64,000 bases of DNA from Antarctobacter heliothermus. GTDB taxonomy: Bacteria > Pseudomonadota > Alphaproteobacteria > Rhodobacterales > Rhodobacteraceae. The position numbers and the translations under genes were made by a program. Under the pieces are notes generated by a model. It was not told the origin of the DNA. It searched no databases and saw nothing but the letters and a program-made list of their open reading frames with translations. Positions 11,621-36,723 of the stretch are shown one piece after another. How positions within the stretch are numbered: position 1 is the stretch's first letter; every line of letters starts with the position of its first letter. The stretch lies in contig NZ_CP022540.1 in NCBI RefSeq assembly GCF_002237555.1, positions 2,981,001-3,045,000 on the forward strand. Reading direction: 5' to 3'.

Positions 11621-11737
11621 GTTGCGGTGTCTCCGGGGTGGTCCCAGCGGTGGTAACGCGGGGTGTGGGCGCTGCCAAGGGGAACGCGGCGACTGGCGAT
11701 AGATCGCCATTTGCGTGCGCTGAACCCGGACACAGGA

Positions 11738-22028: not shown

Positions 22029-23269
22029 GCGAACACCTCGTCTTTCTTGTCGATACGCATATGGCCCGCCGACTGTCCGCGATAGGCCATGCGCCCGGAG
22101 ATCCATGTTCCAGTGATCGCGGGGGTCTGGCCGTCGGGCCACTCTACCAGCACCAGATCGGCGCGTTTTCCGACCTCGATCTGACCGCGATCGCGCAGTC
22201 CCATGGCCCGCGCGGGACCGGCAGAGACCAGCGACCATAATAGTAGCCGGTCTGCGCGTCTTTCGACGTCCAATTGCGCTACGGCCGCCAGCATCGCGGG
22301 GTAGAAATAGTCGGATGCCAGCGCGTCGCACAATCCCGCCTCGACCATGTCGCCTGCTCCGAGCGAGCCGATGTGACTGCCCCCTCGGGCCGCATTCGGC
22401 GCCCCAAAGATGATGGCATCGCCGGCGTTTCGTGCAGCCTGCGCCGCCTCTAACACCATGGGGAATTCGGCGACCGTGGCGCCGATGTTGCGGAACCACG
22501 CCCGTGTTTCGGGGGTGGTGTCGTCATGGCTTAGCATCGGCGCACCGGCATCCCGCGCCATCCGTGCGACGGTCGTGATGGTGGTGGGAACATCGCCACG
22601 GCGGTCCCAGACTTGGGCCAAGAGGGCGATATAGTCTTCCACGGACAGGCCTGCGCGACTCGCCTTTGAGGCGGTGCGCTTTTTCATGCGTTCATCGTCC
22701 AGCGCTGCGATCGAGAAATCTGGTGACAGTTCAAAGCCGCGGCCCTGTATCGGCACATCATAGGCACGCATCGTCATCGACGTGTGATCGTTAAAGGCGA
22801 GCGATGGCAGCAGCGGTGCCCGCAGCGCCTCTTCAATCACCTCGATCGCTTCGAAGGCAAATGTCTCCCACCGCAGTTGTACCCGGTTTTCAACTGTCAG
22901 ACGAGGCGCAAGAGCGGTCAAAGCGCGGATCAGATCACGGCCACGGGTCACGTCCCGCAACCCCGGCTCCCACCCTAAGGTGATGGCGTGATAGGCGGTT
23001 GCGATACCGTTGGCCGCCAGTTGGCGGTCGGTGTCGATCAATGCGGCGTCCTGCGGGAAATAGACCCCCGGGCGCGGCATCAACTGGCGTTCGAACGCAT
23101 CGCCATGCACGTCAATCAGTGCAGGCGCGAGGATCATGCCGCTGGCGTCGATCCGGGTGCCCTGAACCGGCCCGCCGATCTCTGCAATCTTGCCGTCCGC
23201 GATGGTCACGTTGGTCTTGGCGATCTCTGACGGCAGATAGACCGTCGCGCCATGGAATGTCTGGATCAT
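22025..23269 (-). CDS. phnM: PhnM-like phosphonate-metabolism amidohydrolase (first copy)
   Basis: 414 residues. PhnM proteins hydrolyse alpha-D-ribose 1-(methyl)phosphonate 5-triphosphate to the 5-phosphate plus pyrophosphate. Metal-site features are present: IDVHGD (HxD), FNDHTS, MLSHDDTTPE, EFPMVLEAA, GAPNAARGGSHIGS and SDYFYPA. It differs clearly from the second copy at 31769-32941: it lacks the DHSPGQ-type segment and has a longer insert (GRGFELSPDFSIAALDDERMK). Four-base overlaps with both neighbours place it in a tight operon under the phnD promoter. Could act on a different ribosyl substrate. Confidence 0.85.
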   Translation of the reverse strand: MIQTFHGATVYLPSEIAKTNVTIADGKIAEIGGPVQGTRIDASGMILAPALIDVHGDAFERQLMPRPGVYFPQDAALIDTDRQLAANGIATAYHAITLGWEPGLRDVTRGRDLIRALTALAPRLTVENRVQLRWETFAFEAIEVIEEALRAPLLPSLAFNDHTSMTMRAYDVPIQGRGFELSPDFSIAALDDERMKKRTASKASRAGLSVEDYIALLAQVWDRRGDVPTTITTVARMARDAGAPMLSHDDTTPETRAWFRNIGATVAEFPMVLEAAQAARNAGDAIIFGAPNAARGGSHIGSLGAGDMVEAGLCDALASDYFYPAMLAAVAQLDVERRADRLLLWSLVSAGPARAMGLRDRGQIEVGKRADLVLVEWPDGQTPAITGTWISGRMAYRGQSAGHMRIDKKDEVFA

Positions 23270-23922
23270 GGGCGTGCTCCCAGTCGTTCAAGAATCAGAT
23301 GCCAGTGCCACGAGCCCGGCTTTTCATGCTCTCGGTCTTCGAGCCGCAAACATTCGAACCCCGAGAACAGCGCCAGCAGTTCAGCGGCAGAGCAAAAGTA
23401 GTGCGGGTGGATCTTGTCGGTGCCGGGGGCGTCAAAGACCCAGGCATTGCGGCCAATCTCGCGACCTGTGTATTTCGCCTGCTCGTGCGGCAGACGGCGT
23501 ATTGACAGCATCGTGCCCAGATAGGTTCCGCCGGGTTTTAGGACACGCCGGATTTCCGCGATGGTGCGCAGCAGGATGTCTTCGTCACCGTGGTAGATCA
23601 CGTTCCATGAAAGCACATGGTCAAAGGCGCTGTCCTCAAAGGGTAAGGCGTCCATGCGGGCCAGCACAGTCTCGACCCCGCCCGCATTGTCTATCGCGGA
23701 CAGCCCTTCGGGCGCGGCGTCCAGCGCCACCACGTCAAACCCCTGCGAGGCCAGCCAGAGCGCGTGCCGACCGACACCCGCGCCAAGGTCAAGAATGCGC
23801 GCGCCGGGTGTCAGTCCGCTGGCCCATGCCAACACATCCGCTTCGGGTGTCAGCCACTTGCTGTCTGCCGCGATCCCCGACCATTCGGCGTTCCAGTGGG
23901 CGTCGGCGGTATCTGTCTTCAT
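23266..23922 (-). CDS. Class I SAM-dependent methyltransferase
   Basis: 218 residues. AdoMet-binding motif I ILDLGAGVGRHALWLA at about residues 43-58, acidic residue in VVALDAAPEGL, then MDALPFEDSAFDHVLSWNVIYH and VLKPGGTYLGT. TehB/UbiE-like small-molecule methyltransferase. Translationally coupled (4-base overlaps) between phnE and phnM, an unusual member for a phosphonate operon; it may methylate or trap a pathway intermediate. Substrate unknown. Confidence 0.85.
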   Translation of the reverse strand: MKTDTADAHWNAEWSGIAADSKWLTPEADVLAWASGLTPGARILDLGAGVGRHALWLASQGFDVVALDAAPEGLSAIDNAGGVETVLARMDALPFEDSAFDHVLSWNVIYHGDEDILLRTIAEIRRVLKPGGTYLGTMLSIRRLPHEQAKYTGREIGRNAWVFDAPGTDKIHPHYFCSAAELLALFSGFECLRLEDREHEKPGSWHWHLILERLGARP

Positions 23923-24725
23923 CGCTGTTCTCCGATGATTTTCGACCGGGCATAACCCGATAGTTGCTCGATCCCGATCACCACCACGGCGATCATCAGG
24001 ATCACCGTCACGGCTGTCGGATAGTCAAAGAGGTCGAACCCGACCTTGAGTTCGATACCAATGCCGCCCGCGCCCACAAGTCCAAGGATGGTCGACGACC
24101 GGACGGCCTTTTCCAAGGCGAAAAGCCCGGTCGAGACAAAGGCCGGCATGGCCCCGGGGATGGTGGCGCAGGCCACCACGTCGATCTTGCGGGCCCCTGT
24201 CGCAGTCAGGCTTTCCGCCGCGCCTTTGTCGGCGGCCTCCATGTCGTCGGCAAAGAAGCGGCCGCAAAAGCCCACGGTATCCACCACAATGGCAAGCATC
24301 CCGGCAAATGGGCCAAGCCCCACAGCGACGACAAAGACCAATGCCCAAGCGATGTCCGGCACGGCCCGGATAAAACTGAGGACAACGCGCACGAGTTGGT
24401 TGACCCAATTGCCGGCAATCAACCCGCGCGCCGCCAAGAGCGCCACGGGCAGTGACAGGATCACCCCCAGAACCGCACCGCCCACGGCGATCTGCATCGT
24501 CTCGACCATTTTCCACCCCAACCGGGCCAGCACGTCCGGCGACAGGTTCGGAGGAAAGGCACGTGACAAGAAATCGGCAAAGCGCGGCGGCGCGGTGATC
24601 ACCTTTTCGACGGAAAACCCGGCGCCTGCGAGACACCACAGGATCAGGACAACCCCGGCGGCGTAGCCAAGAAAGCTGATCGCCGAGGGGCGTTCGAAAC
24701 GGGACGGAACGGCAGAGTCAGTCAT
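23919..24725 (-). CDS. phnE: Phosphonate/phosphate-ester ABC transporter permease
   Basis: 268 residues from ATG 24725, which overlaps the ATPase stop by 8 bases. Six predicted helices with the binding-protein-dependent permease EAA-loop region (AAESLTATGARKIDVVACATIPGA) and RAVPDIAWALVFVVAVGLGP typical of PhnE. Works with the ATPase and binding protein encoded just upstream. Only one permease in this transporter, so it probably homodimerises, unlike the second system at 34928-36723. Confidence 0.9.
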   Translation of the reverse strand: MTDSAVPSRFERPSAISFLGYAAGVVLILWCLAGAGFSVEKVITAPPRFADFLSRAFPPNLSPDVLARLGWKMVETMQIAVGGAVLGVILSLPVALLAARGLIAGNWVNQLVRVVLSFIRAVPDIAWALVFVVAVGLGPFAGMLAIVVDTVGFCGRFFADDMEAADKGAAESLTATGARKIDVVACATIPGAMPAFVSTGLFALEKAVRSSTILGLVGAGGIGIELKVGFDLFDYPTAVTVILMIAVVVIGIEQLSGYARSKIIGEQR

Positions 24726-25530
24726 ATAGCCCCCTGAGGTCATCGGCATTCAGGCTGGCGGCGGTGGCATCAAGCTTCATCCGCCCCTGAGCCAGTCCCA
24801 GCACCCGGTCGCCATAACGCAGCGCGTGGTCGATATTATGCGAGGTAAAGACAACTGTGACGCCGTCCTGCCGCGCGAGATCAAAGAACAACTCCATGAC
24901 GTCCTCACCCGCAGAAGGATCCAGTGACGCGCAGGGTTCATCGGCAAACAGCACCTCGGGCGCAGAAACGATGGCGCGGGCGATTGCCACGCGCTGGGAC
25001 TGACCACCGGACAGGCGTTCGGCCCGGCGCATCGCGAACTCTGTCAGTCCGACCTTTTCCAGCGCCCGCATCGCCTGCTGGCGTGAGGCCTGTGGCGCAA
25101 AACCGTGACACCAGTGTCGAACTCCCGGCTGTTGGCCCAGCAGACCGTGCAGCACGTTGGACAGCACCGACAGGCGCGGCACCAGATTGTGTTTCTGCGA
25201 CACCAACCCCACGCGCGCCCGCAAGGCGCGCAGATCGGCGGGTCTGGCAGAGGTCGCCTCTTGGTCCAACAAGCGCACTGTACCCGCTGTCACCGGGATC
25301 AACCCCATCAGGCAGCGCAGTAGCGTGGATTTTCCGGCCCCGTTCGCGCCTACCAGCGCCGTGGCCTCACCTCGTGCCAGACGAAAGGAGATGTCGGAGA
25401 ATACCGGTGTGTCGCCAAACTGTTTGGACACGGCCCGGACCTCGATGTCGACGGCAGGAACCGGGGCGCGCTGCTGCGCCCCGGCCTGTTCGACCCTTGT
25501 GGGCCGCTTTATCAGGGCAAGATCACTCAC
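24718..25530 (-). CDS. phnC: Phosphonate ABC transporter ATP-binding protein
   Basis: 270 residues from GTG 25530, chosen because it overlaps the phnD stop by 8 bases (coupled translation) and keeps the extra N-terminus short; an in-frame ATG 200 bases upstream would run through phnD. Walker A GANGAGKST, signature LSGGQSQRVAIAR, Walker B VLFADEPCASLDPS, switch His in FTSHNIDHAL. Energises the PhnE permease. The Walker-B region carries a Cys (EPCASLD), a minor variation. Confidence 0.9.
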   Translation of the reverse strand: MSDLALIKRPTRVEQAGAQQRAPVPAVDIEVRAVSKQFGDTPVFSDISFRLARGEATALVGANGAGKSTLLRCLMGLIPVTAGTVRLLDQEATSARPADLRALRARVGLVSQKHNLVPRLSVLSNVLHGLLGQQPGVRHWCHGFAPQASRQQAMRALEKVGLTEFAMRRAERLSGGQSQRVAIARAIVSAPEVLFADEPCASLDPSAGEDVMELFFDLARQDGVTVVFTSHNIDHALRYGDRVLGLAQGRMKLDATAASLNADDLRGLYD

Positions 25531-26392
25531 CGAGGAACGTGTCGAATTGCGGGTAGCCCGCGTTGGAATACATCGAACGCACATAAGCATAGGCGTCGTC
25601 GTTGATGGCAACGAGATCCATGCCGACGTATTTGTCGTTTTCTTCATGCACGGTGATGCCCGCGATGATCTGTTCCTTGTTCTCAAGGATTGCATCACGC
25701 ACTGCTTCGGCAGCTTCGACCGGGACATGCGCGCCTACCATGATCATGTCGTTGGGCAGGTCGCCCGAGCGCGCGATCATTTTGAAGAACCCATAGGGCA
25801 GGTCGGTCTCGTTGTTGCGGACGTTCAGCCACGATCCCGCGTTCGACCCGATGGCATCCACATCGCCATTTTTCAGCGCCTCATGCGCGATATTGCGCGA
25901 TGTGTGGGTTTTCTCGATGTCGTTCACCGGATCGACGCCGTGATCGGCCAGCACCTGCATCGGGCAAAGCATGTTCGAGGTCGAGCCGATGTCGCCAAAG
26001 GCCACTTTCTTGCCTACCAGATCCGCCGGCACGTTAATGCCACTGTCGGCGCGCACGATGATCGCGCAGTGGTAGTCCGGACGGCCAAGACCAATCAGTG
26101 GTGTGGCTTGGGTCAGCTTGTTTATGACGATATATTCGGCCGGGCCGGATACCACGAAATCGACCGTTTTGCCGCGCAGCGCTTCGGCGGCGGCGGTGCG
26201 GGAGTTGACCGGGTAGAACTCAAAGGTATCGCCGGTCGCGGTTTCCAACGCCGCCTTGAAGGGGCCCCACTCCGTCTGCAGGCGCTCCATGCCTTCGACG
26301 TCAGTGACAGCGAGTTTCCAAGTTTCGGCAGCAGCGCCGAACGCGGTCAGGGTGGCGATGCCGAACCCTAGAACAACAGATTTGATTTTCAT
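25523..26392 (-). CDS. phnD: Phosphonate ABC transporter substrate-binding protein
   Basis: 289 residues with a signal peptide (MKIKSVVLGFGIATLTAFGAAA) and a PhnD/TroA-type type II fold: TDVEGMERLQTEWGPFK, VNSRTAAAEALRGKTVDFVVSGPAEYI, GKKVAFGDIGSTSNMLCPM. Periplasmic receptor of the transporter. GGAGG ribosome site. Its start codon is 18 bases from a perfect palindrome (26410-26425), the likely PhnF operator. Only remotely similar to the second PhnD at 33913, so the two transporters probably take different ligands. Confidence 0.88.
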   Translation of the reverse strand: MKIKSVVLGFGIATLTAFGAAAETWKLAVTDVEGMERLQTEWGPFKAALETATGDTFEFYPVNSRTAAAEALRGKTVDFVVSGPAEYIVINKLTQATPLIGLGRPDYHCAIIVRADSGINVPADLVGKKVAFGDIGSTSNMLCPMQVLADHGVDPVNDIEKTHTSRNIAHEALKNGDVDAIGSNAGSWLNVRNNETDLPYGFFKMIARSGDLPNDMIMVGAHVPVEAAEAVRDAILENKEQIIAGITVHEENDKYVGMDLVAINDDAYAYVRSMYSNAGYPQFDTFLGE

Positions 26393-26409
26393 GTCAGCCT
26401 CCGATGAAA

Positions 26410-26425
26410 ATTCATCCGGATGAAT
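26410..26425. promoter_or_regulatory. PhnF operator 1 (phnD side)
   Basis: ATTCATCCGGATGAAT is a perfect 16-bp palindrome 18 bases upstream of the leftward phnD start. Near-identical copies precede phnF (26584) and the second phnC (33015). Assigned to PhnF because GntR/HutC-type PhnF proteins bind such short palindromes and the gene lies here. Confidence 0.8.
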
Positions 26426-26583
26426 CAACATTTTTGTAATATGGTCGCGACGGACACATGAAGACTTTGTGAAACCTGATGTGATCCGCCTGCCGCGCTC
26501 TGGCGAGGTTGAGGTGGGTCTGAAATTGTCATGCGGACGCAACGCCATGTTCACCGACTTGTCATAATGGCGCTGTAGCGAAA

Positions 26584-26604: not shown

Positions 26605-27324
26605 ATGAACAGAGACCGCTGGCGCGAAATCCGCGCACTGATCGAGCAGGACATAATGGACGGCGTGATGGAGCCGGGGGCCAAACTGCCCACCGAACCG
26701 GAGTTGATACAGCTCTATAATGCAGGGCGCCATACGGTGCGCCGCGCGGTGACGGAACTGGCCAAGGCCGGATACCTCAGCGTTGAGCAGGGGCGTGGCA
26801 CCTTTGTGCAGGCCCGCCCGATGATCGACTATGCCATTGGACGACGCACGCGCCTGAGCCGTAACCTTGACCCTAAAGGGATCGATGTCTCGGGCGAAAC
26901 GCTTGGATATGACCTGGTCCCCGCTTCACCGCGCGTTGCCCGCCTGTTGGGGGTGGCTGAGGGGGCAGAAGTCGTGGCCACGCGCCGCCGGTCCATGGCG
27001 GACGGGGTGCCGGTGAATATCGGTTTGATCTATCACGACGCCGCGCGGTTTTCGGAGTTTGCGATCCGCCGCCGCGCCATGGGGTCGACCACCGCCGTCT
27101 ACGAATCTTATGGCATCACGGACTATCTGCGCGGTCAAACCCAGATCCATGCCCGCCCCGCCCGCGGTGAGGAGCCCCGTCAGCTGCATCAGCACGCCGA
27201 TATGCCGGTTTTGGTGGTGCGCGCGGTGGACACGCTTCTGGACGGCACGCCCATCGCCCACAGTGAGGTGATCTGGTCTGCGGCAAGGGTGAAATTCAGC
27301 TTTAATCTCGACGAGGACGATTGA
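26605..27324 (+). CDS. phnF: GntR/HutC-type regulator of the phosphonate cluster
   Basis: 239 residues. Winged-helix N-terminus (WREIRALIEQDIMDGVMEPG, KLPTEPELIQLYNAGRHTVRR) and a UTRA effector domain (LGYDLVPASPRVARLLGVAEGAEV ... AHSEVIWSAARVKFSF) define a HutC-subfamily GntR protein; TIGR02325-type PhnF regulators look like this. It heads the phnFGHIJKLM operon (1-base overlap with phnG) and is divergent from phnD. The three palindromes are its probable sites. Inducer unknown, expected to be a phosphonate or pathway intermediate. Confidence 0.92.
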   Translation: MNRDRWREIRALIEQDIMDGVMEPGAKLPTEPELIQLYNAGRHTVRRAVTELAKAGYLSVEQGRGTFVQARPMIDYAIGRRTRLSRNLDPKGIDVSGETLGYDLVPASPRVARLLGVAEGAEVVATRRRSMADGVPVNIGLIYHDAARFSEFAIRRRAMGSTTAVYESYGITDYLRGQTQIHARPARGEEPRQLHQHADMPVLVVRAVDTLLDGTPIAHSEVIWSAARVKFSFNLDEDD

Positions 27325-27767
27325 TGACCCAATGCATCGGCACAGCGCCGGACCATAACCACGAGCATATGCTGAGCGTTCTGGCGCGGGCTGATGCCAC
27401 GCGGCTGAAAACCTTTGTAGAGCCACTGATCGCCGATCTTGGCGATATCGAAGTGCGCGAGAACCGGACCGGGCTCGTGATGCTGCCGATGCGCGACACC
27501 GCACAGGGAACTCATTTTCACCTTGGCGAAGTGCTGGTCAGCGAAGCGCATATCACGGCCGCCGGGTGCGAAGGATATGGGATGCGCCGAGGCCGCGATC
27601 TTGAGGCCGCAATGGCCATGGCCATCGTCGACCTTTGCGCGGCGATGGGGCTGCATCGCGATGTCTGTGCCGATTTCGTGGCAGCAGAAGCGACTACGCA
27701 GGCCGATGACGATCACGAAACCCTGCGCCGGGTTGAGGCCACTCGCGTTGATATGGAGACGTTCTGA
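27324..27767 (+). CDS. phnG: PhnG, ribosyl-phosphonate synthesis subunit
   Basis: 147 residues, starting inside the phnF stop (TGATG). Family features: HMLSVLARADATRLKTFVEP, ENRTGLVMLPMRDTAQGTHFHLGEVLV, GYGMRRGRDLEAAMAMAIVD and VEATRVDMETF. In E. coli PhnG joins PhnH, I and L to make alpha-D-ribose 1-alkylphosphonate 5-triphosphate from ATP and phosphonate, and is part of the PhnGHIJ core complex. Confidence 0.94.
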   Translation: MTQCIGTAPDHNHEHMLSVLARADATRLKTFVEPLIADLGDIEVRENRTGLVMLPMRDTAQGTHFHLGEVLVSEAHITAAGCEGYGMRRGRDLEAAMAMAIVDLCAAMGLHRDVCADFVAAEATTQADDDHETLRRVEATRVDMETF

Positions 27768-28303
27768 TGCTGGCTGCACCCGTTCCCTCAGAATTTGAAA
27801 GCCGCTGCAACGCGACCTTTGATGCGTTGATGTGGGCATTGTCGCGGCCAGGAATGTCGCGCGACCTGCACGATACGGGGCAGGCGCAGATTGTCGATGC
27901 GCTGATCGACCGTGAATGCGCAATCTATTGCGATACGCCCGAACGCACACAGCATGCCGCGCGCAGTGGCGCCGCACCGGTCTCAAAGGACGCAGCAGAG
28001 TACCTGTTTCTCGAAAACCCTGTCACGCCGGACCTGTTGCCGAGACTGCGCCAAGGGTCGGACCTGCACCCCGAGGAGGGTGCAACTGTAGTACTGAATG
28101 CGACGCTGGGCATCGGGCAGGATCTTCGTCTGACCGGTCCGGGGGTCGACGGTTCGATCGACATCCGTGTCGCTGGTCTGCCAGACGGCTTTTGGCGGAC
28201 GCGGGCGCAGGTGATGCGCTATCCCATGGGGTTCGAGATTTTTCTGGTCGACGGCGCGCGCATCCTTGGCGTGCCCCGGTCGACCGTTGTGGAGGTGCTG
28301 TGA
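27767..28303 (+). CDS. phnH: PhnH, phosphonate C-P lyase core subunit
   Basis: 178 residues, TGATG overlap with phnG. Recognisable PhnH pattern: FDALMWALSRPGMSRDL near the N-terminus, GSDLHPEEGATVVLN, LTGPGVDGSIDIRVAGLPDGFW and a C-terminal RYPMGFEIFLVDGARILGVPRST. Core-complex subunit related to PLP-enzyme folds but without cofactor. Confidence 0.94.
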   Translation: MLAAPVPSEFESRCNATFDALMWALSRPGMSRDLHDTGQAQIVDALIDRECAIYCDTPERTQHAARSGAAPVSKDAAEYLFLENPVTPDLLPRLRQGSDLHPEEGATVVLNATLGIGQDLRLTGPGVDGSIDIRVAGLPDGFWRTRAQVMRYPMGFEIFLVDGARILGVPRSTVVEVL

Positions 28304-29367
28304 TGGCCTATGTCGCGACCCGTGGCGGAGAACGCGCAATTGAGCAATCGCAGCGGTTGTTCAAAGAGGAAATGGGCCCGATCACGCCCGAGCGCGTAGC
28401 CGAGGTGCGCCGCGCTTTGCCCTATCTGATTGATCGCGTGATGGGCGAAGCTTCGCTGTACGATGAAGATCTGGCTGCGCTGGCGCTGGCCCAGACCGGC
28501 GGCGAAAGCTATGAGGCAATCCTGTTATTGCGTGCATGGCGCACGACGCAACCGCGTCTGGCGGTGGCCGAGCCGGTGACGCAAGAGACCCTGTTCACCC
28601 ACCGCCGTATCTCTGCCGCTTTCAAGGATATTCCCGGAGGGCAACTGCTGGGACCGACGCTGGACTATGCCCACCGTATTCTGGCCACCGAGGTGCTGGA
28701 GGGCGATACGCATGTGCCCGCCGCCGTGACCCCGGCCGACACTCCCGCACCGGCGCAGCAGCCATCGGTCGCGGCGTGGCAGGCGGCGAACGGCCTGCTG
28801 ACTGCTCCCGAGGCGGACCAGACCCTTGGCAATGCCATTCCCGATGTCACACGCGAACCGCTGCTGTTTCCCGCCAAGCGTGCTCATACCCTGCAATCGC
28901 TGGCGCGGGCGGAAACCGGCGGCGTGCTGGCGCTGGGCTATGCGGCGCAGCGCGGCTATGGGCAGGCCCATCCGACCGTCAACGAACTGCGACTGGCCGA
29001 GGCCGAAATTGTGGTGAAACACCCGCGCGGCACGCAGTTCAGCGCCGGGCGGGTCAAGGTTTCGCAGGCAGAGGTGGTGTCTAAGCAGGGCCGCGAATTG
29101 GGGCTAGGCTTTTCGGCAACGCTGGGCTGGAACGAGGTCAAGGTGATCGCCGCCGCCACGCTGGACCTGAACGCCAAGGGCGCGCCCAAAGGGGCGGCGA
29201 CGGAAGAAGAGTTCTTTCTCTATCACACCGAAGGCGTCGAAAGCTCAGGCTTTTGCATTCATTTCAAACTGCCCCACTACGTCACATTCCAATCCTCGCT
29301 GGACGCCATGCGCGACGCGCGCAGCACGGCCGCAGCAAAGGACAAGCAACCGGAGCCTGCCGAATGA
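28303..29367 (+). CDS. phnI: PhnI, nucleosidase subunit of the C-P lyase complex
   Basis: 354 residues from ATG 28303 (TGATG overlap with phnH). Start MAYVATRGGERAIEQS; further RRISAAFKDIPGGQLLGPTLDYAHR, LALGYAAQRGYGQAHPTVNELR and the near-C-terminal IHFKLPHYVTFQ, which keeps the two histidines (H-x4-H) that in the E. coli complex lie at the PhnI/PhnJ metal site. PhnI displaces adenine from ATP with phosphonate. Catalytically intact as far as motifs show, in contrast to the PhnJ next to it. Confidence 0.94.
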   Translation: MAYVATRGGERAIEQSQRLFKEEMGPITPERVAEVRRALPYLIDRVMGEASLYDEDLAALALAQTGGESYEAILLLRAWRTTQPRLAVAEPVTQETLFTHRRISAAFKDIPGGQLLGPTLDYAHRILATEVLEGDTHVPAAVTPADTPAPAQQPSVAAWQAANGLLTAPEADQTLGNAIPDVTREPLLFPAKRAHTLQSLARAETGGVLALGYAAQRGYGQAHPTVNELRLAEAEIVVKHPRGTQFSAGRVKVSQAEVVSKQGRELGLGFSATLGWNEVKVIAAATLDLNAKGAPKGAATEEEFFLYHTEGVESSGFCIHFKLPHYVTFQSSLDAMRDARSTAAAKDKQPEPAE

Positions 29368-30275
29368 CCCTCAAATCCCTGACACGCGACTGGGAGCCGA
29401 TGGCCTACGGTTTTCTCGACGGGTCCGCCAAGCGCGAAATCCGCCGCAAGATGCTGAAGGCAATTGCCGTGCCCGGCTGCCAGATGCCCTATGCCAGCCG
29501 AGAGGTGCCCATGGCGCGCGGCTGGGGCACTGGCGGGCTGCAGGTGTCCTGCACGCTGGTGAATCCCCGGACCCGGATCAAGGTCATCGACCAAGGCGCA
29601 GATGACAGCGTCAATGCCGCCTCGATCCGCAAGTTTCTGGCGCGCGTTTCAGGCGCGCCCGTGACCACCGACACGCTAGAGGCGGACCTGATCCAATCGC
29701 GCCACCGCATCCCAGAGGAACGGCTGCGCGCCGATCAGGTGCTGGTGTTGCAGGTTCCCAACCCCGAGCCGCTGAGGTCTGTGCAACCCAACATGTCCAT
29801 TGCTCGCCAGATGCATGCCGACGCCGATTACGGGCGGATGTGGCTGCAACTATATGAGCAGATCGTGCGGGCAGGGCGGGTGATGCAGGGCGCGTCCTAT
29901 CCGTCGATGGTCAATGGCCGCCACGTCATGACGCCCTCACCGATTCCGCGCTGGGATGTGCCAAAGCTGCACATGGCGCAGCACCTGACGCTGCTGTCGG
30001 CGGGCCGCGAAAAGCGGCTGCACGCGGTGCCGCCCTTTACCCGGGTCGAGCCGTTGACCTTTGACGATGTGGCCTACCGGGTCGAGGATCACGCGGGCTT
30101 GACCTGCCACAGATCTGGCGCGCGCGGCTATTTCATGAACGAGATTCCGCAGGCTGACGGTTCTTCGCTGCACGAAGTTTCGGACAGCGACCTGGGCGTC
30201 AAGGTAATCCGCCGTGGCGAAGGCGATCCGGTGCAGATCGGAACAACCTGGTACAGCAACGGAGAAATGACATGA
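29364..30275 (+). CDS. phnJ: PhnJ homologue lacking most radical-SAM cysteines
   Basis: 303 residues from ATG 29364 (ATGA overlap with phnI). Clear PhnJ over its whole length: VPGCQMPYASREVPM, GWGTGGLQ, KVIDQGADD, QSRHRIPE, SPIPRWDVPKLHM, GREKRLHAVPPFTRVEPLTFDD. The glycyl-radical glycine of E. coli PhnJ (G32) is kept as G38. The C-terminal Fe-S part is not: E. coli has Cys241, 244, 266 (cluster) and 272 (thiyl radical) in CxxC ... CSDTDYC. Here the same stretch reads CHRSG (C248, then S251) and EVSDSDLG, leaving one of four cysteines. The frame is otherwise undamaged and under coding constraint, so classical C-P cleavage by this protein is doubtful. Confidence 0.93.
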   Translation: MTLKSLTRDWEPMAYGFLDGSAKREIRRKMLKAIAVPGCQMPYASREVPMARGWGTGGLQVSCTLVNPRTRIKVIDQGADDSVNAASIRKFLARVSGAPVTTDTLEADLIQSRHRIPEERLRADQVLVLQVPNPEPLRSVQPNMSIARQMHADADYGRMWLQLYEQIVRAGRVMQGASYPSMVNGRHVMTPSPIPRWDVPKLHMAQHLTLLSAGREKRLHAVPPFTRVEPLTFDDVAYRVEDHAGLTCHRSGARGYFMNEIPQADGSSLHEVSDSDLGVKVIRRGEGDPVQIGTTWYSNGEMT

Positions 30276-31066
30276 AAACCATGGACGCCCCCCGTCTGGT
30301 CAAGACCCGTCCGCTGCTGACCGCGCAGGGCCTGTCGCTGAACTATGGGTCTGTGCAGGCCATGCGCAATGTGTCCGCCACCGTTTTTCCGGGCGAGGTG
30401 CTGGGTATCGTCGGCGAAAGCGGTTCGGGCAAATCCACTTTTTTGCGCTGCCTCAACCTAGAGGAAACGCCGGATACGGGCAGCTATACGCTGGACCTGC
30501 CGGACGTGCAGGGCAACCTGTTCGACCTTGACCGCTATGCGCGGAGGATGCTGTGTGCGACCCGGATCGGGATCGTTTACCAGAACCCGCATCTTGGCCT
30601 GCTGATGCAGCATTCCTCGTCGGGCAACGTGGCCGAGCGGTTGCTGGTTGCGGGCGAACGGCGGTTCAACGTCCTGCGTGACAAGGCGCGCGGCGCACTG
30701 GACGCATCAGAGTTCCCTCTGGAACGGATGGACGCCCCGCCCATCGATCTGTCCGGCGGCATGCAGCAGCGGGTGCAGCTGGCCAAGGCAATTGCGCTGG
30801 AACCGGCGCTGTTGCTGCTGGACGAGCCGACCACCGGGCTGGACGTCAGCGTTCAGGCTTTGGTGCTGGACACGTTGAAACGGCTGCAACAGGACCGCCA
30901 GATCACCATGGTCATCGTCAGCCACGACCTCGGCGTAATCCGAACGCTGGCCGACCGCGTCATGGTGATGCGACGCGGCGAAGTGGTCGAGGCCGGCCTT
31001 GCCGATCAAGTCTTTCAAGACCCGCAACACGCTTACACACAACAATTGGTGCACGCAAAGCTATGA
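30272..31066 (+). CDS. phnK: PhnK, ABC-type ATPase of the C-P lyase complex
   Basis: 264 residues, ATGA overlap with phnJ. ABC features: Walker A GESGSGKST, Q-loop GIVYQNPHLGL, signature LSGGMQQRVQLAKAIA, Walker [15 protein letters not shown], switch MVIVSHDLGV. In E. coli PhnK docks on PhnJ of the core complex and is needed in vivo; it is soluble, not a transporter ATPase. The HSSSGNVAERLL stretch is PhnK-like. Confidence 0.94.
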   Translation: MKTMDAPRLVKTRPLLTAQGLSLNYGSVQAMRNVSATVFPGEVLGIVGESGSGKSTFLRCLNLEETPDTGSYTLDLPDVQGNLFDLDRYARRMLCATRIGIVYQNPHLGLLMQHSSSGNVAERLLVAGERRFNVLRDKARGALDASEFPLERMDAPPIDLSGGMQQRVQLAKAIALEPALLLLDEPTTGLDVSVQALVLDTLKRLQQDRQITMVIVSHDLGVIRTLADRVMVMRRGEVVEAGLADQVFQDPQHAYTQQLVHAKL

Positions 31067-31782
31067 CCCGGATTCTTGACGTACGCGGCCTGTCCAAAGG
31101 CTTTGACATGCACCACCTTGGCACGCATATGGCGGCCTTTTCCGACATTTCCCTGACGTTGGATGCGGGCGAATTCCTGCTGCTCAAGGGGCGCAACGGG
31201 GCAGGCAAATCCACGCTGCTGCGGACGCTGTACCGCAGCTATTTGGCGGCCAAGGGCGAAATCCTGTTCCATTCCTCACACGGGGTGATCGATCTGGCCC
31301 GCGCTGCGGATGTGGATGTGACCCATTTGCGCCGGACCGAGATCGGCTTTGTCACTCAGTTCCTGACCGCGCGCCCGCGTGTCAGCGCCGAGGCGCTGGT
31401 GGCCGAGCCACTGCGCCTTGCCGGACACGACGCCGGGGACGCGCTGGAACGGGCCCGGCACTGGCTGGCGGCCTTTGGCGTCAAACCTGCCCTCTGGCCC
31501 GCTTATCCCACCACGTTTTCCGGCGGTGAACAGCAAAAGGTCAATTTGGCCCGCGCGCTGATCCTGCCACAACGGCTGCTGCTGCTGGATGAGCCGACGG
31601 CCTCTCTGGATGCTTCGGCTCGCGCGGCCCTGATCGACCGGCTGGCCGAACTGAAACGTCACGGCACGGCGATGGTCGGGGTATTCCACCATCCCGGCGA
31701 CGTGGCGACCCTGATCGACCGCGAGATCGACTTGACCCCCGACGCCCCCCAAAAGGAGATCCGAGACGATGTGGCTGTCTGA
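31063..31782 (+). CDS. phnL: PhnL, ABC-type ATPase for ribosyl-phosphonate synthesis
   Basis: 239 residues, overlapping phnK by 4 bases. Walker A KGRNGAGKST, signature FSGGEQQKVNLARAL, Walker B LLLLDEPTASLDA, and VGVFHHPGDVATL in place of the usual switch region, all typical of PhnL. Works with PhnG, PhnH and PhnI. Its last 14 bases overlap the following phnM. Confidence 0.93.
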   Translation: MTRILDVRGLSKGFDMHHLGTHMAAFSDISLTLDAGEFLLLKGRNGAGKSTLLRTLYRSYLAAKGEILFHSSHGVIDLARAADVDVTHLRRTEIGFVTQFLTARPRVSAEALVAEPLRLAGHDAGDALERARHWLAAFGVKPALWPAYPTTFSGGEQQKVNLARALILPQRLLLLDEPTASLDASARAALIDRLAELKRHGTAMVGVFHHPGDVATLIDREIDLTPDAPQKEIRDDVAV

Positions 31783-32941
31783 TTTTACCCTCGTCCTGCC
31801 TGACACGGTGCAACGCGGATCGCTGCGGATCGAGAATGGCCGGATCACCGAAATTATCGACGGCTCAGTGTCCGGCGGCATCGACGGTCGCGGCCACACG
31901 ATCTTTGCCGGTTTCATCGACATGCATGGCGACATGATCGAACAAGAGCTGGAACCGCGCGCCCGGGTGGATTTCCCAATGGACGTGGCGTTGAACGCAT
32001 TGGACGCCCGACTGGCGGCCAGCGGTGTGACGACGGCCTATGCCTCGGTCTCGTTCTCTCGCTCGGCGGCGCAGGGCGAGAGGCGGTCCTATGAGCATAC
32101 GTCGCAGGTGATCCGGGCGTTGCATGGCGCGCGGCAGGGATGCCGGGTGGATCACCGTATCCATGCGCGATTTGATATCACCTTTGACAATGCGGTCGGC
32201 GTACTGGCGCAATTGCTTGAGGATGGTCAGGTCGACCTTGTGTCGCTGATGGACCACACACCGGGGCAGGGACAGTATCGCAACCTTGAAATCCACATCC
32301 GGAACAAGGCCGCGCAGAACGGCATCTCGGTCCCCGAGGCACGACAGATCGTGGCGCAATCCATTGCCGACCGGGACCGACCCCAAGAGGTGCTACTTGC
32401 CAACATGCGCACCGTGGCGCGGCTGTGCCGAGAACACGGCGTCGCGCTGGCCAGCCATGACGACGACACCGTCGAAAAGGCACAGTTGATGGCCGATTTG
32501 GGGGCGGTGATTGCGGAATTCCCGGTCACACATGAAGCCGCGCAGGCCGCTATCGCCACGGGAATGATGACTGCCATGGGCGCTCCGAATGCCATGCGCG
32601 GACAAAGCTATTCCGGCAATCTATCCGCGCGGCAGGCGCATGCCGAAGGTCTGTTGTCGATCTTGGCTGCCGATTATCACCCGGCGGCGATTCTACCCGC
32701 GATCCGCCGCCTGGCCGAGGTCGACGCCAACGGTCTTGCAGGCGCTGCGCGTCTTGCCACAGTGAATCCGGCCAAGGCGCTTGGCCTTGCCGACAGGGGT
32801 GCGATTGCGCCCGGCAAGCGGGCAGATCTGGTCATCGTGGATGACCGTGACCGCGTGGCGCTGACCCTTGGCGATGGCTGCGTGGTCTATTCCAACGGCA
32901 CCATGGAAACCGCGAGCGAGGCATTGCGCACGGTCGCCTGA
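31769..32941 (+). CDS. phnM: PhnM, ribose-1-phosphonate 5-triphosphate diphosphatase (second copy)
   Basis: 390 residues. Amidohydrolase motifs: FIDMHGDMIEQ (HxD metal ligands), VSLMDHTPGQGQYRN, ALASHDDDTVEKA, EFPVTHEAAQAA, GAPNAMRGQSYSGNL and AADYHPAAIL. The DHxPGQ segment matches canonical PhnM better than the copy at 22025 does. Removes pyrophosphate from the ribosyl triphosphate before C-P cleavage. No phnN or phnP accompanies the cluster. Confidence 0.93.
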   Translation: MWLSDFTLVLPDTVQRGSLRIENGRITEIIDGSVSGGIDGRGHTIFAGFIDMHGDMIEQELEPRARVDFPMDVALNALDARLAASGVTTAYASVSFSRSAAQGERRSYEHTSQVIRALHGARQGCRVDHRIHARFDITFDNAVGVLAQLLEDGQVDLVSLMDHTPGQGQYRNLEIHIRNKAAQNGISVPEARQIVAQSIADRDRPQEVLLANMRTVARLCREHGVALASHDDDTVEKAQLMADLGAVIAEFPVTHEAAQAAIATGMMTAMGAPNAMRGQSYSGNLSARQAHAEGLLSILAADYHPAAILPAIRRLAEVDANGLAGAARLATVNPAKALGLADRGAIAPGKRADLVIVDDRDRVALTLGDGCVVYSNGTMETASEALRTVA

Positions 32942-33064: not shown

Positions 33065-33880
33065 ATGACCGCGACGCTAAGCCTGAAGAATCTGTCCAGA
33101 GAATTCGGCACCACCACCGCCGTGGACAACGCTACGCTGGATATCAATCCAGGTGAGTTTGTCGGTGTCATCGGGCGGTCCGGAGCGGGAAAGTCCACCA
33201 TGCTGCGTTTGATCAACCGTCTTGTCGACCCCACTTCGGGGTCGATTTCCTTTGACGGGGTCGAGATCACGGCGCTCAGGGGACGCGCCTTGCGCAATTG
33301 GCGACGCGATTGCGCAATGATTTTTCAGCAGTTCAACCTTGTCGACCGGCTGGACGTGCTGACCAACGTGCTGATCGGGCGGCTGGCCGAACACGGGTTC
33401 CTGTCATCCATGGCCATGTCGTTCTCCGACGCCGAGCGAACCATGGCCATCGAGGCGCTGGACCGGCTCGACCTTGTACCGCAGGCACTGCAACGCGCAG
33501 GCACACTTTCCGGTGGCCAGCAACAACGTGTGGCCATCGCCAAGGCGCTAGTGCAACAACCTAAAATCATGCTGGCGGATGAGCCGATTGCCTCGCTCGA
33601 CCCGGCCAATGCCACCCGAGTCATGGACGGGCTGAAGCGGATCAACAGCGAAGACGGTCTGACCGTGTTGGTCAACTTGCACACACTGGACACCGCACGC
33701 GCCTATTGCGACCGCATCATCGCCATGCGGGCGGGCCGCGTGATGTTCGACGGCACTCCCAATCAGCTGACCGATGACGTGGTGCGCGACATCTACGGCA
33801 TCGAAGGGCTGATGGAATTCAACGAAGCGGTCACCTCTACCTCTGCCCGGGCAACCGGCAGGGTGTTTGTGCCCAGCTGA
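33065..33880 (+). CDS. phnC: Phosphonate ABC transporter ATP-binding protein (second system)
   Basis: 271 residues. Walker [11 protein letters not shown]-loop [19 protein letters not shown], signature [15 protein letters not shown], Walker [15 protein letters not shown], then [15 protein letters not shown]: the classical PhnC pattern. First gene of a transporter operon preceded by a PhnF-type palindrome. More similar to textbook PhnC than the copy at 24718. Confidence 0.95.
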
Positions 33881-33912: not shown

Positions 33913-34833
33913 ATGCGTTTCATTACCGCCACCGCACTTGCTGCACTGATCGCCGCGCCAGCTTTGGCCCAAGGCTGGAAAGACGACTATCAGGTCGTGA
34001 AATTCGGCATCCTGTCCAGCGAAAACGAAAAAGACCGCCTGATGCGCAATGAGCCACTGCGCGCCTATCTGGAAGAAACGCTGGGCGTTTCTGTCGAGAT
34101 CTTCACCGCTGGCAACTATGACGGCGTGATCCAGGCCATGGCCGCCAACCAGATCGAGGTCGCGCGCCTTGGGTCGTCCGCCTACGCTGCGGCCTACACG
34201 GCGACAGACGGTAATATCATCCCGACGCTGACCAGCGTCGCCAAGGACGGCAGCACTGGCTATTACTCGGTCGTTCTGACGCGTTGCGACAGCGGCATCA
34301 AGAACCTTGAAGATGCCAAGGGCAAGATCCACGCCTTTGCCGATCCTGACAGCACTTCGGGCTATGCCGTGCCCTACTTCAACATGGTCGAGCGTGAAGG
34401 CTTCAAGCCCGAAGAACATTTCAAAAGCGTCGTCTTTTCCGGTAGCCATGAGGCGGGCGTCACTGGTGTGGTGAACGGCACCTTCGATACCGCCGCGACC
34501 TATCAGGACAACGACGTCTCGGGCATTTACCAGCGCATGGAAGACAAGGGCATGATCGAGCCCGGCCTGATCTGCAAGATCTGGGAAAGCCCGGAAATCA
34601 CTTCTGGTCCTTGGACGTTCAATGGCAACCTGCCCGCGGACATGATCGAAGAAGTCACCGCCGCCATTGAAAGCTTTCCGAAAAATGACCCGGAAGGCTA
34701 CAAGCTGTATTCCTCGTTTAATCCCGAAGACGCAAATCCTGAAAACGGTTTTGTCCGCGTCGACCATGACCGCTATCAGTGGATTGTCGACATGCGCGAC
34801 TGGATCAAAGACCACCGCCGCTCGGGTTCGTGA
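33913..34833 (+). CDS. phnD: Phosphonate ABC transporter periplasmic binding protein (second system)
   Basis: 306 residues with a signal peptide (cleavage after ALA-Q, residue 19). PhnD-family sequence: FGILSSENEKDRLMRNEPLRAYLEETLG, NYDGVIQAMAANQIEVARLGSSAYAAA, ADPDSTSGYAVPYFNM. Delivers phosphonate to the two-permease system. Followed by a hairpin that may keep its mRNA level above that of the permeases. Confidence 0.94.
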   Translation: MRFITATALAALIAAPALAQGWKDDYQVVKFGILSSENEKDRLMRNEPLRAYLEETLGVSVEIFTAGNYDGVIQAMAANQIEVARLGSSAYAAAYTATDGNIIPTLTSVAKDGSTGYYSVVLTRCDSGIKNLEDAKGKIHAFADPDSTSGYAVPYFNMVEREGFKPEEHFKSVVFSGSHEAGVTGVVNGTFDTAATYQDNDVSGIYQRMEDKGMIEPGLICKIWESPEITSGPWTFNGNLPADMIEEVTAAIESFPKNDPEGYKLYSSFNPEDANPENGFVRVDHDRYQWIVDMRDWIKDHRRSGS

Positions 34834-34927: not shown

Positions 34928-35869
34928 ATGACCGCAACATCCGACTTTCACGCCGAATCCGCACGCGGCGACGGCACGATTGCGCGTTTCGAGAACGCCT
35001 ACGCCGACCAGCGCCGCCGGGCGCAGCGCGCCTGGCTGATCGGCACAGTGATCTTCATGATCGTCTTTGCCTTCACCGCCTGGATCGGCGATTTCTTCAA
35101 GGTTGCCCAAGTGACCATGCCGGATGGATCGCGTGAATGGCGCTGGATCATCCCCGCCGGGCTGCCACGACTGGGTGAATTTATTGTAAAAATGATCCCA
35201 TCGCTAAGCTGGGACAGCCTGGGTGCGGATCTGGCCAACTGGTTCTGGCGCTGGAAAACTTGGCTTGTCCTGCTCGTCGAGACCATCCAGATTGCATTCA
35301 TGGCGACCGCGCTGGGTGTCGTCGGTGGGTTTGTCCTATCGTTTCCCGCCGCCCGCAACCTGAGCCCCAACAAATGGGTTTTGTTCCTCACCCGCCGCTA
35401 TCTGGAGATCGCGCGCACGGTGCCGGAACTGGTCTGGGCGCTGATCTTCGTCTTCTGCTTTTCCGTCGGCCCCATGGCCGGGGTCATGGCCATCGGCCTT
35501 CACACCACCGGCGCGCTGGGGAAACTCTATTCGGAAGTGAACGAAAACATCGACATGCGCCCACTGGAGGGCGTCAAGGCGGCTGGTGGAACATGGTTTG
35601 ACCAAATCCGTTATGGCGCGGTGCCGCAGGTACTACCCAACATCATCAGCTACACGTTGCTGCGGTTTGAAATCAACGTGCGCGCCTCGTCGATCATCGG
35701 CTACGTCGGCGCGGGCGGTTTGGGCCAAGAGTTCCGCACCGCGATGAGCTTTCAAGAATACACCGACCTCTCGGCGCTGTTCATCATCATCTTTGTGACC
35801 GTGATGGTGATCGACTACGGCTCGGAAAAGCTGCGCCACCGGGTCATTGGCATGGAGGCACGGCCATGA
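34928..35869 (+). CDS. phnE: Phosphonate ABC transporter permease 1 (second system)
   Basis: 313 residues. Long N-terminal cytoplasmic part, one helix near 37-55, a periplasmic segment, then the five-helix permease core with ARTVPELVWALIFVFCFSVGPMAG and the EAA-like loop (EGVKAAGGTWFDQIRYGAVPQVLP). Ends in GAGGLGQEFRTAMSFQEYTD. Overlaps the next permease as ATGA; the pair probably forms a heterodimer. Confidence 0.93.
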   Translation: MTATSDFHAESARGDGTIARFENAYADQRRRAQRAWLIGTVIFMIVFAFTAWIGDFFKVAQVTMPDGSREWRWIIPAGLPRLGEFIVKMIPSLSWDSLGADLANWFWRWKTWLVLLVETIQIAFMATALGVVGGFVLSFPAARNLSPNKWVLFLTRRYLEIARTVPELVWALIFVFCFSVGPMAGVMAIGLHTTGALGKLYSEVNENIDMRPLEGVKAAGGTWFDQIRYGAVPQVLPNIISYTLLRFEINVRASSIIGYVGAGGLGQEFRTAMSFQEYTDLSALFIIIFVTVMVIDYGSEKLRHRVIGMEARP

Positions 35870-36723
35870 GCCTGACCACTGACCAGATCGACGCCGCCCG
35901 CGCCCGCGTGCCGCTGGCCTTTCGCGACCCACTGCCGGTTCGCTTGCGTCGCTACGTCCTGTGGAGTTTTTTCATCGGGTTGTTCTGCTGGTGTCTGTAC
36001 GACTTCAACATCACGCCCGCGCGCATCTGGGAGGGGCTTGCCCGCTTTGGCACTGTTGCCAGCTTTATGTTCCCGCCCCATATCTGGACGGAATGGGAAC
36101 CGTTCGCGGATGTTCTCAACGGATTGGGCGAAACCTTGGCTATCGCCTTTCTGGGCACGCTGCTGGGCGCGGTCTTTGCCTTCCCGCTGTCGTTCCTGGG
36201 TGCCAAGAATATCAATCGGCTGAACTTCCTGCGGTTGTCGACGCGGCGCGGCTACGACGTCATACGCGCCATCGAGACCCTGATCCTTGCCTTGATCTTT
36301 ATCCGCGCCTTTGGTCTGGGGCCGCTGGCCGGTATCCTGGCCATCGCCGTCAGCGAGATCGGCACCTTTGCCAAGCTGTTCTCCGAAGCGATCGAAAATA
36401 CCTCGTCCAAGCCGGTTGACGGGGTCAAGGCATCGGGCGGCTCGCGTCTGCAACAGATCCGCTTTGGCATCGGCCCGCAGGTCAATCCGGTACTGCTGTC
36501 AATCCTGCTGTACAACTTTGAATCCAACGTCCGGTCCGGCACCATCCTTGGTATCGTCGGTGCCGGGGGCATCGGTTTCCTGCTGTCCGATCGCATCGCC
36601 GCCTACAAATGGGACGAAGCGTGGTCCATTATCTTCCTCATCATCGCAATGGTCTACTTGATCGATTGGCTTTCGGGCTTGATCCGCAGCCGGATGATTG
36701 GCGCGCAGTCGCTTACAAAATGA
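35866..36723 (+). CDS. phnE: Phosphonate ABC transporter permease 2 (second system)
   Basis: 285 residues. PhnE features: GLGETLAIAFLGTLLGAVFAFPLSFLG split over two helices, RAIETLILALIFIRAFGLGPLAG, EAA loop KPVDGVKASGGSRLQQIRFG, and GTILGIVGAGGIGFLLSDRI. Translationally coupled to permease 1. Confidence 0.93.
   Translation: MSLTTDQIDAARARVPLAFRDPLPVRLRRYVLWSFFIGLFCWCLYDFNITPARIWEGLARFGTVASFMFPPHIWTEWEPFADVLNGLGETLAIAFLGTLLGAVFAFPLSFLGAKNINRLNFLRLSTRRGYDVIRAIETLILALIFIRAFGLGPLAGILAIAVSEIGTFAKLFSEAIENTSSKPVDGVKASGGSRLQQIRFGIGPQVNPVLLSILLYNFESNVRSGTILGIVGAGGIGFLLSDRIAAYKWDEAWSIIFLIIAMVYLIDWLSGLIRSRMIGAQSLTK

Follow-up and report, generated by a model that had tools for sequence, protein, structure and literature searches.

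We analyzed a 64,000-nucleotide stretch of the Antarctobacter heliothermus genome (NZ_CP022540.1, positions 2,981,001 to 3,045,000; hereafter the window), which carries a carbon-phosphorus (C-P) lyase gene cluster. Its phnJ gene encodes an intact protein in which three of the four cysteines of the catalytic radical S-adenosylmethionine (SAM) enzyme are replaced, including the one that bears the thiyl radical. It is near certain that this PhnJ, here called Cys-less, represents a real and selected lineage. Cys-less PhnJ is present in at least three phyla, namely Pseudomonadota, Chloroflexota (Anaerolineae metagenome-assembled genomes, MAGs), and Deinococcota (Thermus). Judged by conserved residues, the Cys-less complex is a lineage separate from the classical C-P lyase, in which the zinc site and the 5-phospho-ribose pocket appear intact while the Fe-S/thiyl apparatus of PhnJ appears to be gone.

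Cysteine loss in the window PhnJ and its relatives

The phnJ frame of the window (29364-30275, + strand) is open and intact and yields a product of 303 residues, which matches the PhnJ family profile PF06007 at 381.7 bits (cut-off 25) over positions 4-268 of 275, that is, over its full length. The alignment with E. coli PhnJ (PDB 7z15_D/4xb6_D) spans residues 15-276 of the window protein; it stops at residue 270 of E. coli PhnJ, and the equivalent of Cys272 was placed through the normal PhnJ of the same genome. As demonstrated by these alignments, Gly32 of E. coli is retained as G38, and of the cysteines at E. coli positions 241, 244, 266, and 272, which a catalytic radical-SAM PhnJ carries, only the first remains (C248), the other three being replaced by S251, V272, and G278. 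The codons behind these motif residues were verified against the DNA. The whole protein contains only C39 and C63 besides C248, which rules out that cysteines elsewhere restore the motif by realignment. Family and context make the window protein a PhnJ, yet it lacks what defines the radical-SAM PhnJ catalytically. An earlier note on this DNA, made from the letters alone, had described a kept fold, a kept glycyl-radical glycine, and a sole remaining first cysteine, all of which the alignments bear out; it overlooked the cysteine directly after the glycine (C39), and the misalignment that it had named as a possible flaw is not the case. An AlphaFold model of Cys-less PhnJ has a mean pLDDT (predicted local distance difference test) of 59, with residues 36-55 below 50, and no distances were taken from it. 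No NCBIfam model matched either the window PhnJ (at E 0.001) or canonical PhnJ (at 1e-30), so that no automatic name was seen that separates the two types.

The search scored 7434 homologues as matches, and the best 120 were examined. In 120/120 of these, the equivalents of Cys244, Cys266, and Cys272 are absent and that of Cys241 is present; the Gly32 equivalent is present in 119/120, and a cysteine occupies the following position, Tyr33 in E. coli, in all 120. Additionally, we compared 53 Cys-less loci (one contig being counted twice, as L049 and L119) with 68 Cys-complete loci; all of them were retained in the PhnJ count, while the PhnI count dropped one of the 53 and one of the 68. The two groups were defined after inspection of the C-terminal motif, so that the counts partly restate the sorting, and they also separate by identity to the window PhnJ (60-100% for Cys-less against at most 54% for Cys-complete). 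The Thermus sequences (58-62% identity), which are Cys-less, joined the comparison later. Cysteine at positions 244, 266, and 272 occurs in 0/53 Cys-less against 68/68 Cys-complete loci, and at position 241 in 51/53 against 68/68; the Anaerolineae MAG copies L136 and L140 have no cysteine at all in the aligned PhnJ. Gly32 is kept throughout the 53 Cys-less loci, where the next residue is Cys in 43, Tyr in nine, and His in one. The cysteine after Gly32 would accordingly be a trait of the alphaproteobacterial part, with exceptions there too, and not of the whole Cys-less group. As a candidate new thiyl, C39 fits the roseobacters but was rejected on the Tyr and His copies.

Since the same three positions are non-cysteine in 120/120 and 53/53, the loss is neither chance nor a sequencing error. 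The ratio of nonsynonymous to synonymous polymorphism (pN/pS) was 0.04-0.17 in eight Cys-less PhnJ pairs and 0.19 in one canonical pair, and Cys-less phnJ is under purifying selection. The earlier note had argued against pseudogene drift and suggested looking for the same loss in related clusters, and both points held; what it took for a loss in one gene is instead the fixed state of a PhnJ/PhnI lineage in several phyla. A degenerate gene, a frameshift, or a sequencing or assembly error would agree with the report that the lost residues are essential in E. coli, but retains practically no probability, given the loss shared by all 120 relatives, the purifying selection, and the recurrence of the cluster in several phyla.

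The available part of PMC9947105 describes the proposed Fe-S site of E. coli PhnJ (Cys 241, 244, 266, and 272) as lying 30 Å from Gly32, the connection being unexplained, and a zinc at the PhnI-PhnJ interface, which is held by PhnI His328 and His333 and binds a ligand modelled as 5-phosphoribosyl cyclic phosphate (PRcP). According to the same part, this site also involves PhnJ Arg107, His108, Gln124, and loop 47-50, and PhnI His219 joins in the open state. The PhnJ residues, including the loop G47/W48/G49/T50 (E. coli numbering), are kept in 53/53 Cys-less loci, and PhnI His328 (window H324) in 51/51 covered Cys-less loci; the other two PhnI histidines are given in Table 1, with PhnI residues counted from 28291, making Met residue 5. 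Both Thermus copies also keep the residues of the zinc site and the ribose-phosphate pocket. The Zn/PRcP site that characterizes the C-P lyase core is thereby recognized through residue identity only. Specifically, the Cys-less type resembles the E. coli type in PF06007 membership, the GHIJKLM operon logic, Gly32, Arg107, His108, Gln124, loop 47-50, and PhnI His219/328/333, whereas it lacks PhnJ Cys244, 266, and 272 (and 241 in two MAG copies), is set apart by a deep branch, and has its own FMNE[IL]P..DG....E.SD stretch (varied in Thermus) and C-terminal tail.

Phylogeny and distribution

In a maximum-likelihood tree of 120 PhnJ rows (52 Cys-less and 68 Cys-complete), all Cys-less copies lie on one side of a branch with a support of 100/100 and a length of 0.78 changes per site, with the caveat that the bootstrap was not fully settled and the program warns of long branches meeting here. 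The split persists without the C-terminal and residue-39 columns (Shimodaira-Hasegawa-like approximate likelihood ratio test, SH-aLRT, 99), and PhnI of the same clusters splits likewise with the Cys322 column removed (SH-aLRT 100). The two Thermus sequences group with the Cys-less side for both PhnJ (SH-aLRT 99) and PhnI (SH-aLRT 100). The tree is unrooted and does not tell whether the Cys-less or the Cys-complete state is older. Two side observations arose here. A further Cys-complete group (L158, L162, L163, L164, L166, and L174) has a support of 100/100, and within it L174 and L166 carry insertions near the Cys motif as well as IPGYQVPY, as in part of the Cys-less group. The Cys-less PhnJs of Aureimonas altamirensis (L131) and Paracoccus shanxieyensis (L123) are nearly identical, which points to recent transfer or cross-contamination.

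Each genome sample is a subset of a larger group, and a gene not found in a MAG or draft genome is weak evidence of absence. The sample of the window's family comprises 394 genomes, of which 203 match PhnJ; the Cys-less type (76-100% identity) was found in 24, A. heliothermus among them. A second PhnJ match occurs in 21 of these 24, again including A. heliothermus, whose genome also carries a normal Cys-complete PhnJ, as the earlier note had proposed to look for. In G305, G080, G250, G317, and G230, a single contig carries both phnJ genes no more than ~25 kb apart, and this close pairing speaks for a working link where both exist. In the MAG Rhodobacteraceae UBA6796 (L157), a Cys-less PhnJ is followed ~9 kb on by a second cluster with a different-looking Cys-complete PhnJ (1865-2782 and 10685-12058). 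Across 385 sampled genomes of the window's class, close matches were confined to the window's own genome and G210. Named loci with the Cys-less type among the best 80 matches belong to Devosia, Hoeflea, Neorhizobium, Phyllobacterium, Mesorhizobium, Paracoccus, and Aureimonas. Of 196 matching plasmid records, 13 show 60-80% identity, and the six plasmid records read (L235-L240: Haematobacter, Microvirga, Sinorhizobium, Nitratireductor, and two Thermus, one at 57.7%) are all Cys-less.

The Cys-less copy is the only PhnJ found in 11 genomes. Two of them, G074 and G297, have a single PF06007 match and are both ~99% complete, completeness being given for only these two of the 11; the other nine come from the 29 genomes behind the named Cys-less loci, in which PF06007 found no other PhnJ, and comprise a Devosia MAG, Haematobacter massiliensis CCUG 47968, one alphaproteobacterial MAG, four Anaerolineae, one Bacteroidetes, and one unclassified MAG. 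G335 also has a single PhnJ but is 79% complete and was left out of the count. In the Devosia MAG, extra PhnN/TIGR03223 copies suggest that a classical cluster may be missing. The Bacteroidetes copy nests among Anaerolineae PhnJs in the tree and may be transferred or misbinned. In the class of the Anaerolineae MAG G797, itself one of the nine, nine of 298 genomes have a PhnJ match and 9/9 carry a Cys-less copy; one of these 9, G1010, adds a doubtful 86-residue PhnJ fragment on a 2-kb stretch that looks chimeric.

Gene neighbourhoods of the Cys-less cluster

The window holds the complete set phnFGHIJKLM-CDEE-act, and with it the phnGHIJKLM genes that together mark a C-P lyase operon (Table 1). 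The order from phnF to act recurs over the roseobacter Cys-less set, with gaps and contig ends, and in the named Cys-less loci GHIJKL recurs where the contig allows, with phnM next in most. An accessory importer cassette, including a SAM methyltransferase, a PhnM-like amidohydrolase, and a TIM (triosephosphate isomerase)-barrel protein of apurinic/apyrimidinic (AP)-endonuclease fold, adjoins some Cys-less clusters in whole or in part, and was not seen next to any canonical cluster read that stands apart from a Cys-less one. Six matches to the Pho box consensus were found in the window against a mean of 3.94 expected, and 14 of 100 shuffles gave as many, which is no excess over chance. Upstream of phnF in three roseobacters (L047, L050, and L054) lie genes that presumably encode a sugar-type ATP-binding cassette (ABC) transporter and calcineurin-like phosphoesterase(s), which hints at an ester as the form in which the substrate may enter.

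The classical cluster that A. heliothermus also carries (C1:425000-444900, L060) comprises the same subunits but differs in having all four cysteines and its own PhnN and TIGR03223 genes, and its PhnJ is 49% identical to the window PhnJ. An extra open reading frame lies between its phnK and phnL (7928-8878, - strand), which we take to be a CorA-type transporter, and similar matches occur in L065 and L069. The cluster on plasmid pVV8 of Thermus thermophilus HB8 is like that of the window in that its PhnJ is changed at the same three positions; it has the order CDE-GHIJKLM, a DapH-like gene, and a sugar-phosphate isomerase nearby, and differs in a Tyr after Gly32, an Ala at PhnI position 322, and no PhnN annotated in the 24.8-kb stretch read. 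Downstream of the phn cluster in this stretch (L235 6489-24253) come a TIGR00282 metallophosphoesterase, the sugar-phosphate isomerase, a sugar ABC transporter, and SurE. The isomerase shares 29% identity over 211 residues with a roseobacter neighbour protein. Compared with the calcineurin-like proteins that precede some roseobacter clusters, the metallophosphoesterase shows no notable similarity. In L138 (14277-16247) and L141 (10201-12933), the Cys-less cluster is followed by PhnX (TIGR01422, phosphonoacetaldehyde hydrolase) and a TIGR03364 flavin adenine dinucleotide (FAD) oxidoreductase, which places two C-P systems in one neighbourhood; PhnX is a non-radical C-P hydrolase, an unrelated haloacid dehalogenase (HAD) enzyme, and queries with the L138 and L141 copies found no further one in the loci then compared.

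The downstream genes vary. TIGR03223 (DUF1045) and PhnN are not beside the Cys-less cluster of the window, and most Cys-less clusters read have neither alongside. In G074, however, phnF to phnM and CDEE share one run on a single strand with act, a TIGR03223 gene, a gene for a putative membrane protein, and PhnN, and in G297 PhnN and TIGR03223 lie directly upstream of the Cys-less cluster. Either gene also occurs near the Cys-less cluster in L129, L130, L133, and L134, and PhnN near Cys-less phnJ in Haematobacter and Devosia loci. PhnN over the cut-off was found in 5/5 proteobacterial and 0/6 non-proteobacterial Cys-less-only genomes, and TIGR03223 matches in 5/5 (two over the cut-off) and 1/6 (weak), respectively; PhnP over the cut-off was found in 0/12 genomes, that is, these 11 and the window's. 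We take TIGR03223 to be the 2H phosphoesterase for which a role in place of PhnP is proposed in the available part of PMC3840354.

Table 1 Features of the window, with positions, strand, and supporting evidence
Feature	Position	Strand	Evidence
Divergent accessory cassette: PhnD-like, PhnC-like, PhnE-like, methyltransferase, second PhnM-like, AP-endonuclease-fold protein	21213..26542	-	PhnC-like 245 bits, under the phnC cut-off
phnF, regulator	26605..27324	+	TIGR02325 187 bits, cut-off 156.8
phnG	27321..27767	+	PF06754 78.3 bits
phnH	27767..28303	+	PF05845 98.8 bits
phnI, partner subunit	28303..29367	+	PF05861 357.1 bits; aligned with 7z15_C
PhnI H227 (E. coli His219, Zn ligand of open state)	28969..28971	+	52/52 Cys-less, 67/67 Cys-complete
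PhnI C322-I323-H324; Cys two residues ahead of E. coli Zn ligand His328 (V326 there)	29254..29262	+	Cys in 51/51 covered Cys-less, 1/67 Cys-complete
PhnI H329 (E. coli Zn ligand His333)	29275..29277	+	51/51 covered Cys-less, 67/67 Cys-complete
phnJ, Cys-less lineage, 303 aa	29364..30275	+	PF06007 profile match 381.7 bits; E. coli PhnJ alignment
PhnJ G38 (E. coli Gly32, kept) and C39 (E. coli Tyr33)	29475..29480	+	C39 in 120/120 close relatives, 43/53 of wider group
PhnJ R113, H114 (E. coli Arg107, His108; PRcP contacts at Zn site)	29700..29705	+	53/53 Cys-less, 68/68 Cys-complete; role from the available part of PMC9947105
PhnJ Q130 (E. coli Gln124, ribose contact)	29751..29753	+	53/53 Cys-less, 68/68 Cys-complete
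PhnJ C248 (Cys241), sole remaining ligand cysteine	30105..30107	+	Cys in 51/53 of group
PhnJ S251 at Cys244 position	30114..30116	+	Ser 44, Thr 9 of 53; Cys 68/68 Cys-complete
PhnJ V272 at Cys266 position	30177..30179	+	V/L/I/A/T/M in 53/53
PhnJ G278 at thiyl-radical Cys272 position	30195..30197	+	Gly 43, Ala 7, W/M/I 3 of 53
phnK	30272..31066	+	ABC ATPase PF00005; position and similarity across loci
phnL	31063..31782	+	ABC ATPase PF00005; position and similarity across loci
phnM (RPnTP diphosphatase)	31769..32941	+	NF011988 466.8 bits, cut-off 369; TIGR02318 403.5, cut-off 390.55
phnC	33065..33880	+	TIGR02315 327.7 bits, cut-off 266.1
phnD	33913..34833	+	TIGR03431 261.3 bits, cut-off 261.1
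Two phnE permeases	34928..36723	+	TIGR01097 260.8 and 271.1 bits, cut-off 216.7
act, hexapeptide acyltransferase of phn operons	36803..37411	+	TIGR03308 269.3 bits, cut-off 201.65

Possible chemistry of the Cys-less complex

Tentatively, and falling short of calling it probable, we favour the reading that the Cys-less type (PhnGHIJKL and PhnM, with its own PhnCDE importer) works as a C-P-lyase-like machine, coupling a phosphorus compound to ribose and then cutting it at the zinc site between PhnI and PhnJ, with no part played by PhnJ radical chemistry. By analogy with E. coli, PhnI together with G, H, and L would attach the imported compound to the ribose of ATP, and PhnM would remove pyrophosphate. 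The final cut would take place at the zinc site, without a PhnJ-borne [4Fe-4S] cluster or thiyl radical, in its simplest form through attack of the ribose 2-OH on the phosphorus. Substrates would then be limited to compounds with a leaving group, such as phosphate esters, P-N or P-S compounds, and activated phosphonates; the product would be the same cyclic ribose phosphate, handed to the 2H phosphoesterase and PhnN where present, and methane release from methylphosphonate would not be expected. PhnN and the putative 2H phosphoesterase in or near several Cys-less operons favour a pathway that continues to (cyclic) ribose phosphate.

Several points weigh against this reading. Gly32 is kept in every Cys-less locus compared, as a radical enzyme would also show. 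The co-variation of PhnI and PhnJ is not independent evidence, because the split is one event on an unrooted tree. From its distribution, PhnI Cys322 cannot be an essential new catalyst for the whole group, because the position is Ala in both Thermus PhnI read and Cys in the Cys-complete relative L166. phnM is not adjacent to the Cys-less cluster in L134, L135, and L157. The downstream half of the pathway is not universal, because of the six non-proteobacterial Cys-less-only genomes with no PhnN over the cut-off and one weak TIGR03223 match among them, and where PhnN and TIGR03223 do stand beside Cys-less operons they could be remnants of a lost classical cluster.

It is unlikely, though the strongest of the alternatives, that the complex makes ribosyl-phosphonate, as the triphosphate (RPnTP) and then the monophosphate (RPnP), as its end product, to serve detoxification, storage, or signalling, while PhnJ has a structural role, closing the pocket and docking PhnK. 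The loss of the radical cysteines, with PhnI, the zinc site, PhnK, and PhnL kept, would fit this, as would the lack of PhnN over the cut-off in the six non-proteobacterial Cys-less-only genomes and the separate C-P hydrolase PhnX carried by two of those clusters. The arrangements in G074 and G297, and PhnN near the Haematobacter and Devosia copies, argue the other way, and it is difficult to see why operons with importers of their own would spend ATP on a product that goes no further.

Rather unlikely, too, is radical C-P cleavage with the cluster or radical supplied from elsewhere, by a separate activase, another metal, or Gly32 together with an outside activating enzyme, as in glycyl-radical enzymes. 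The retention of Gly32 (53/53; 119 of the best 120) and the unexplained 30 Å link to the E. coli Fe-S site (PMC9947105, as far as available) are what would support it. Among the recurring neighbours no activase-like gene was seen, not every neighbour having been searched against family libraries; no PhnJ cysteine is universal, two copies having none in the aligned stretch, and Gly32 may be kept for the loop alone. We consider a further possibility quite unlikely, namely that genuine, unactivated C-P bonds are cut by the Cys-less complex at its PhnI/PhnJ zinc site, PhnJ contributing no [4Fe-4S]/thiyl machinery; if this were true, the same scaffold would hold a second, non-radical-SAM solution, and the site of the E. 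coli chemistry would need re-examination.

We consider it improbable that PhnI carries a rebuilt metal site (C322-x-H324-x4-H329) that works by oxidative or thiol chemistry, with a PhnI thiol in place of the lost PhnJ thiol. Rescue by new cysteines was considered across the seven proteins from PhnG to PhnM, and in the Cys-less loci only C322 of PhnI is invariant; the cysteine also occurs at this position (E. coli 326) in a further eight genomes of the Anaerolineae class sample and in four plasmid loci; Thermus, with Ala in both copies, breaks the invariance, and L166 has the cysteine alongside a complete PhnJ. There is likewise a slim chance that the two types cooperate within one cell, the Cys-less complex preparing substrate for the classical PhnJ, exchanging it with that protein, or forming mixed complexes with it. 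The second match in 21 of 24 Cys-less-bearing family genomes and the close pairing in five genomes agree with such cooperation, but the window's Cys-less cluster has its own partner set, and no other PhnJ was found in the 11 Cys-less-only genomes, nor, the doubtful G1010 fragment aside, in the Anaerolineae class sample. Where the earlier note had offered reliance on another enzyme as one way out, a normal PhnJ therefore cannot be that enzyme in general.

In a literature search covering listings and the beginnings of abstracts, we found no report of a PhnJ without these cysteines, nor of a Cys-less lineage. In the available parts of the respective papers, the four cysteines are confirmed and relied on in the PhnJs studied (PMC11978286), primers are placed on the PhnJ cysteines (PMC12413358), and phnJ (K06163) is counted in a survey as a marker of methane from methylphosphonate (PMC8774927). 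The annotated public records of Cys-less copies, as read, bear the plain PhnJ name, and phnJ-based surveys may therefore count them and overstate methane potential, including in roseobacters such as Marivita (P0039). The C-P lyase mechanism is still partly open, the Fe-S site lying ~30 Å from the glycyl-radical residue and a separate zinc site holding a product-like ligand (PMC9947105, available part). With the Thermus thermophilus HB8 plasmid copy, the Cys-less system can be tested in a laboratory strain. The Fe-S site is gone and the zinc site retained in three phyla or more, so that a comparison of the Cys-less with the Cys-complete type could reveal the role of each site.

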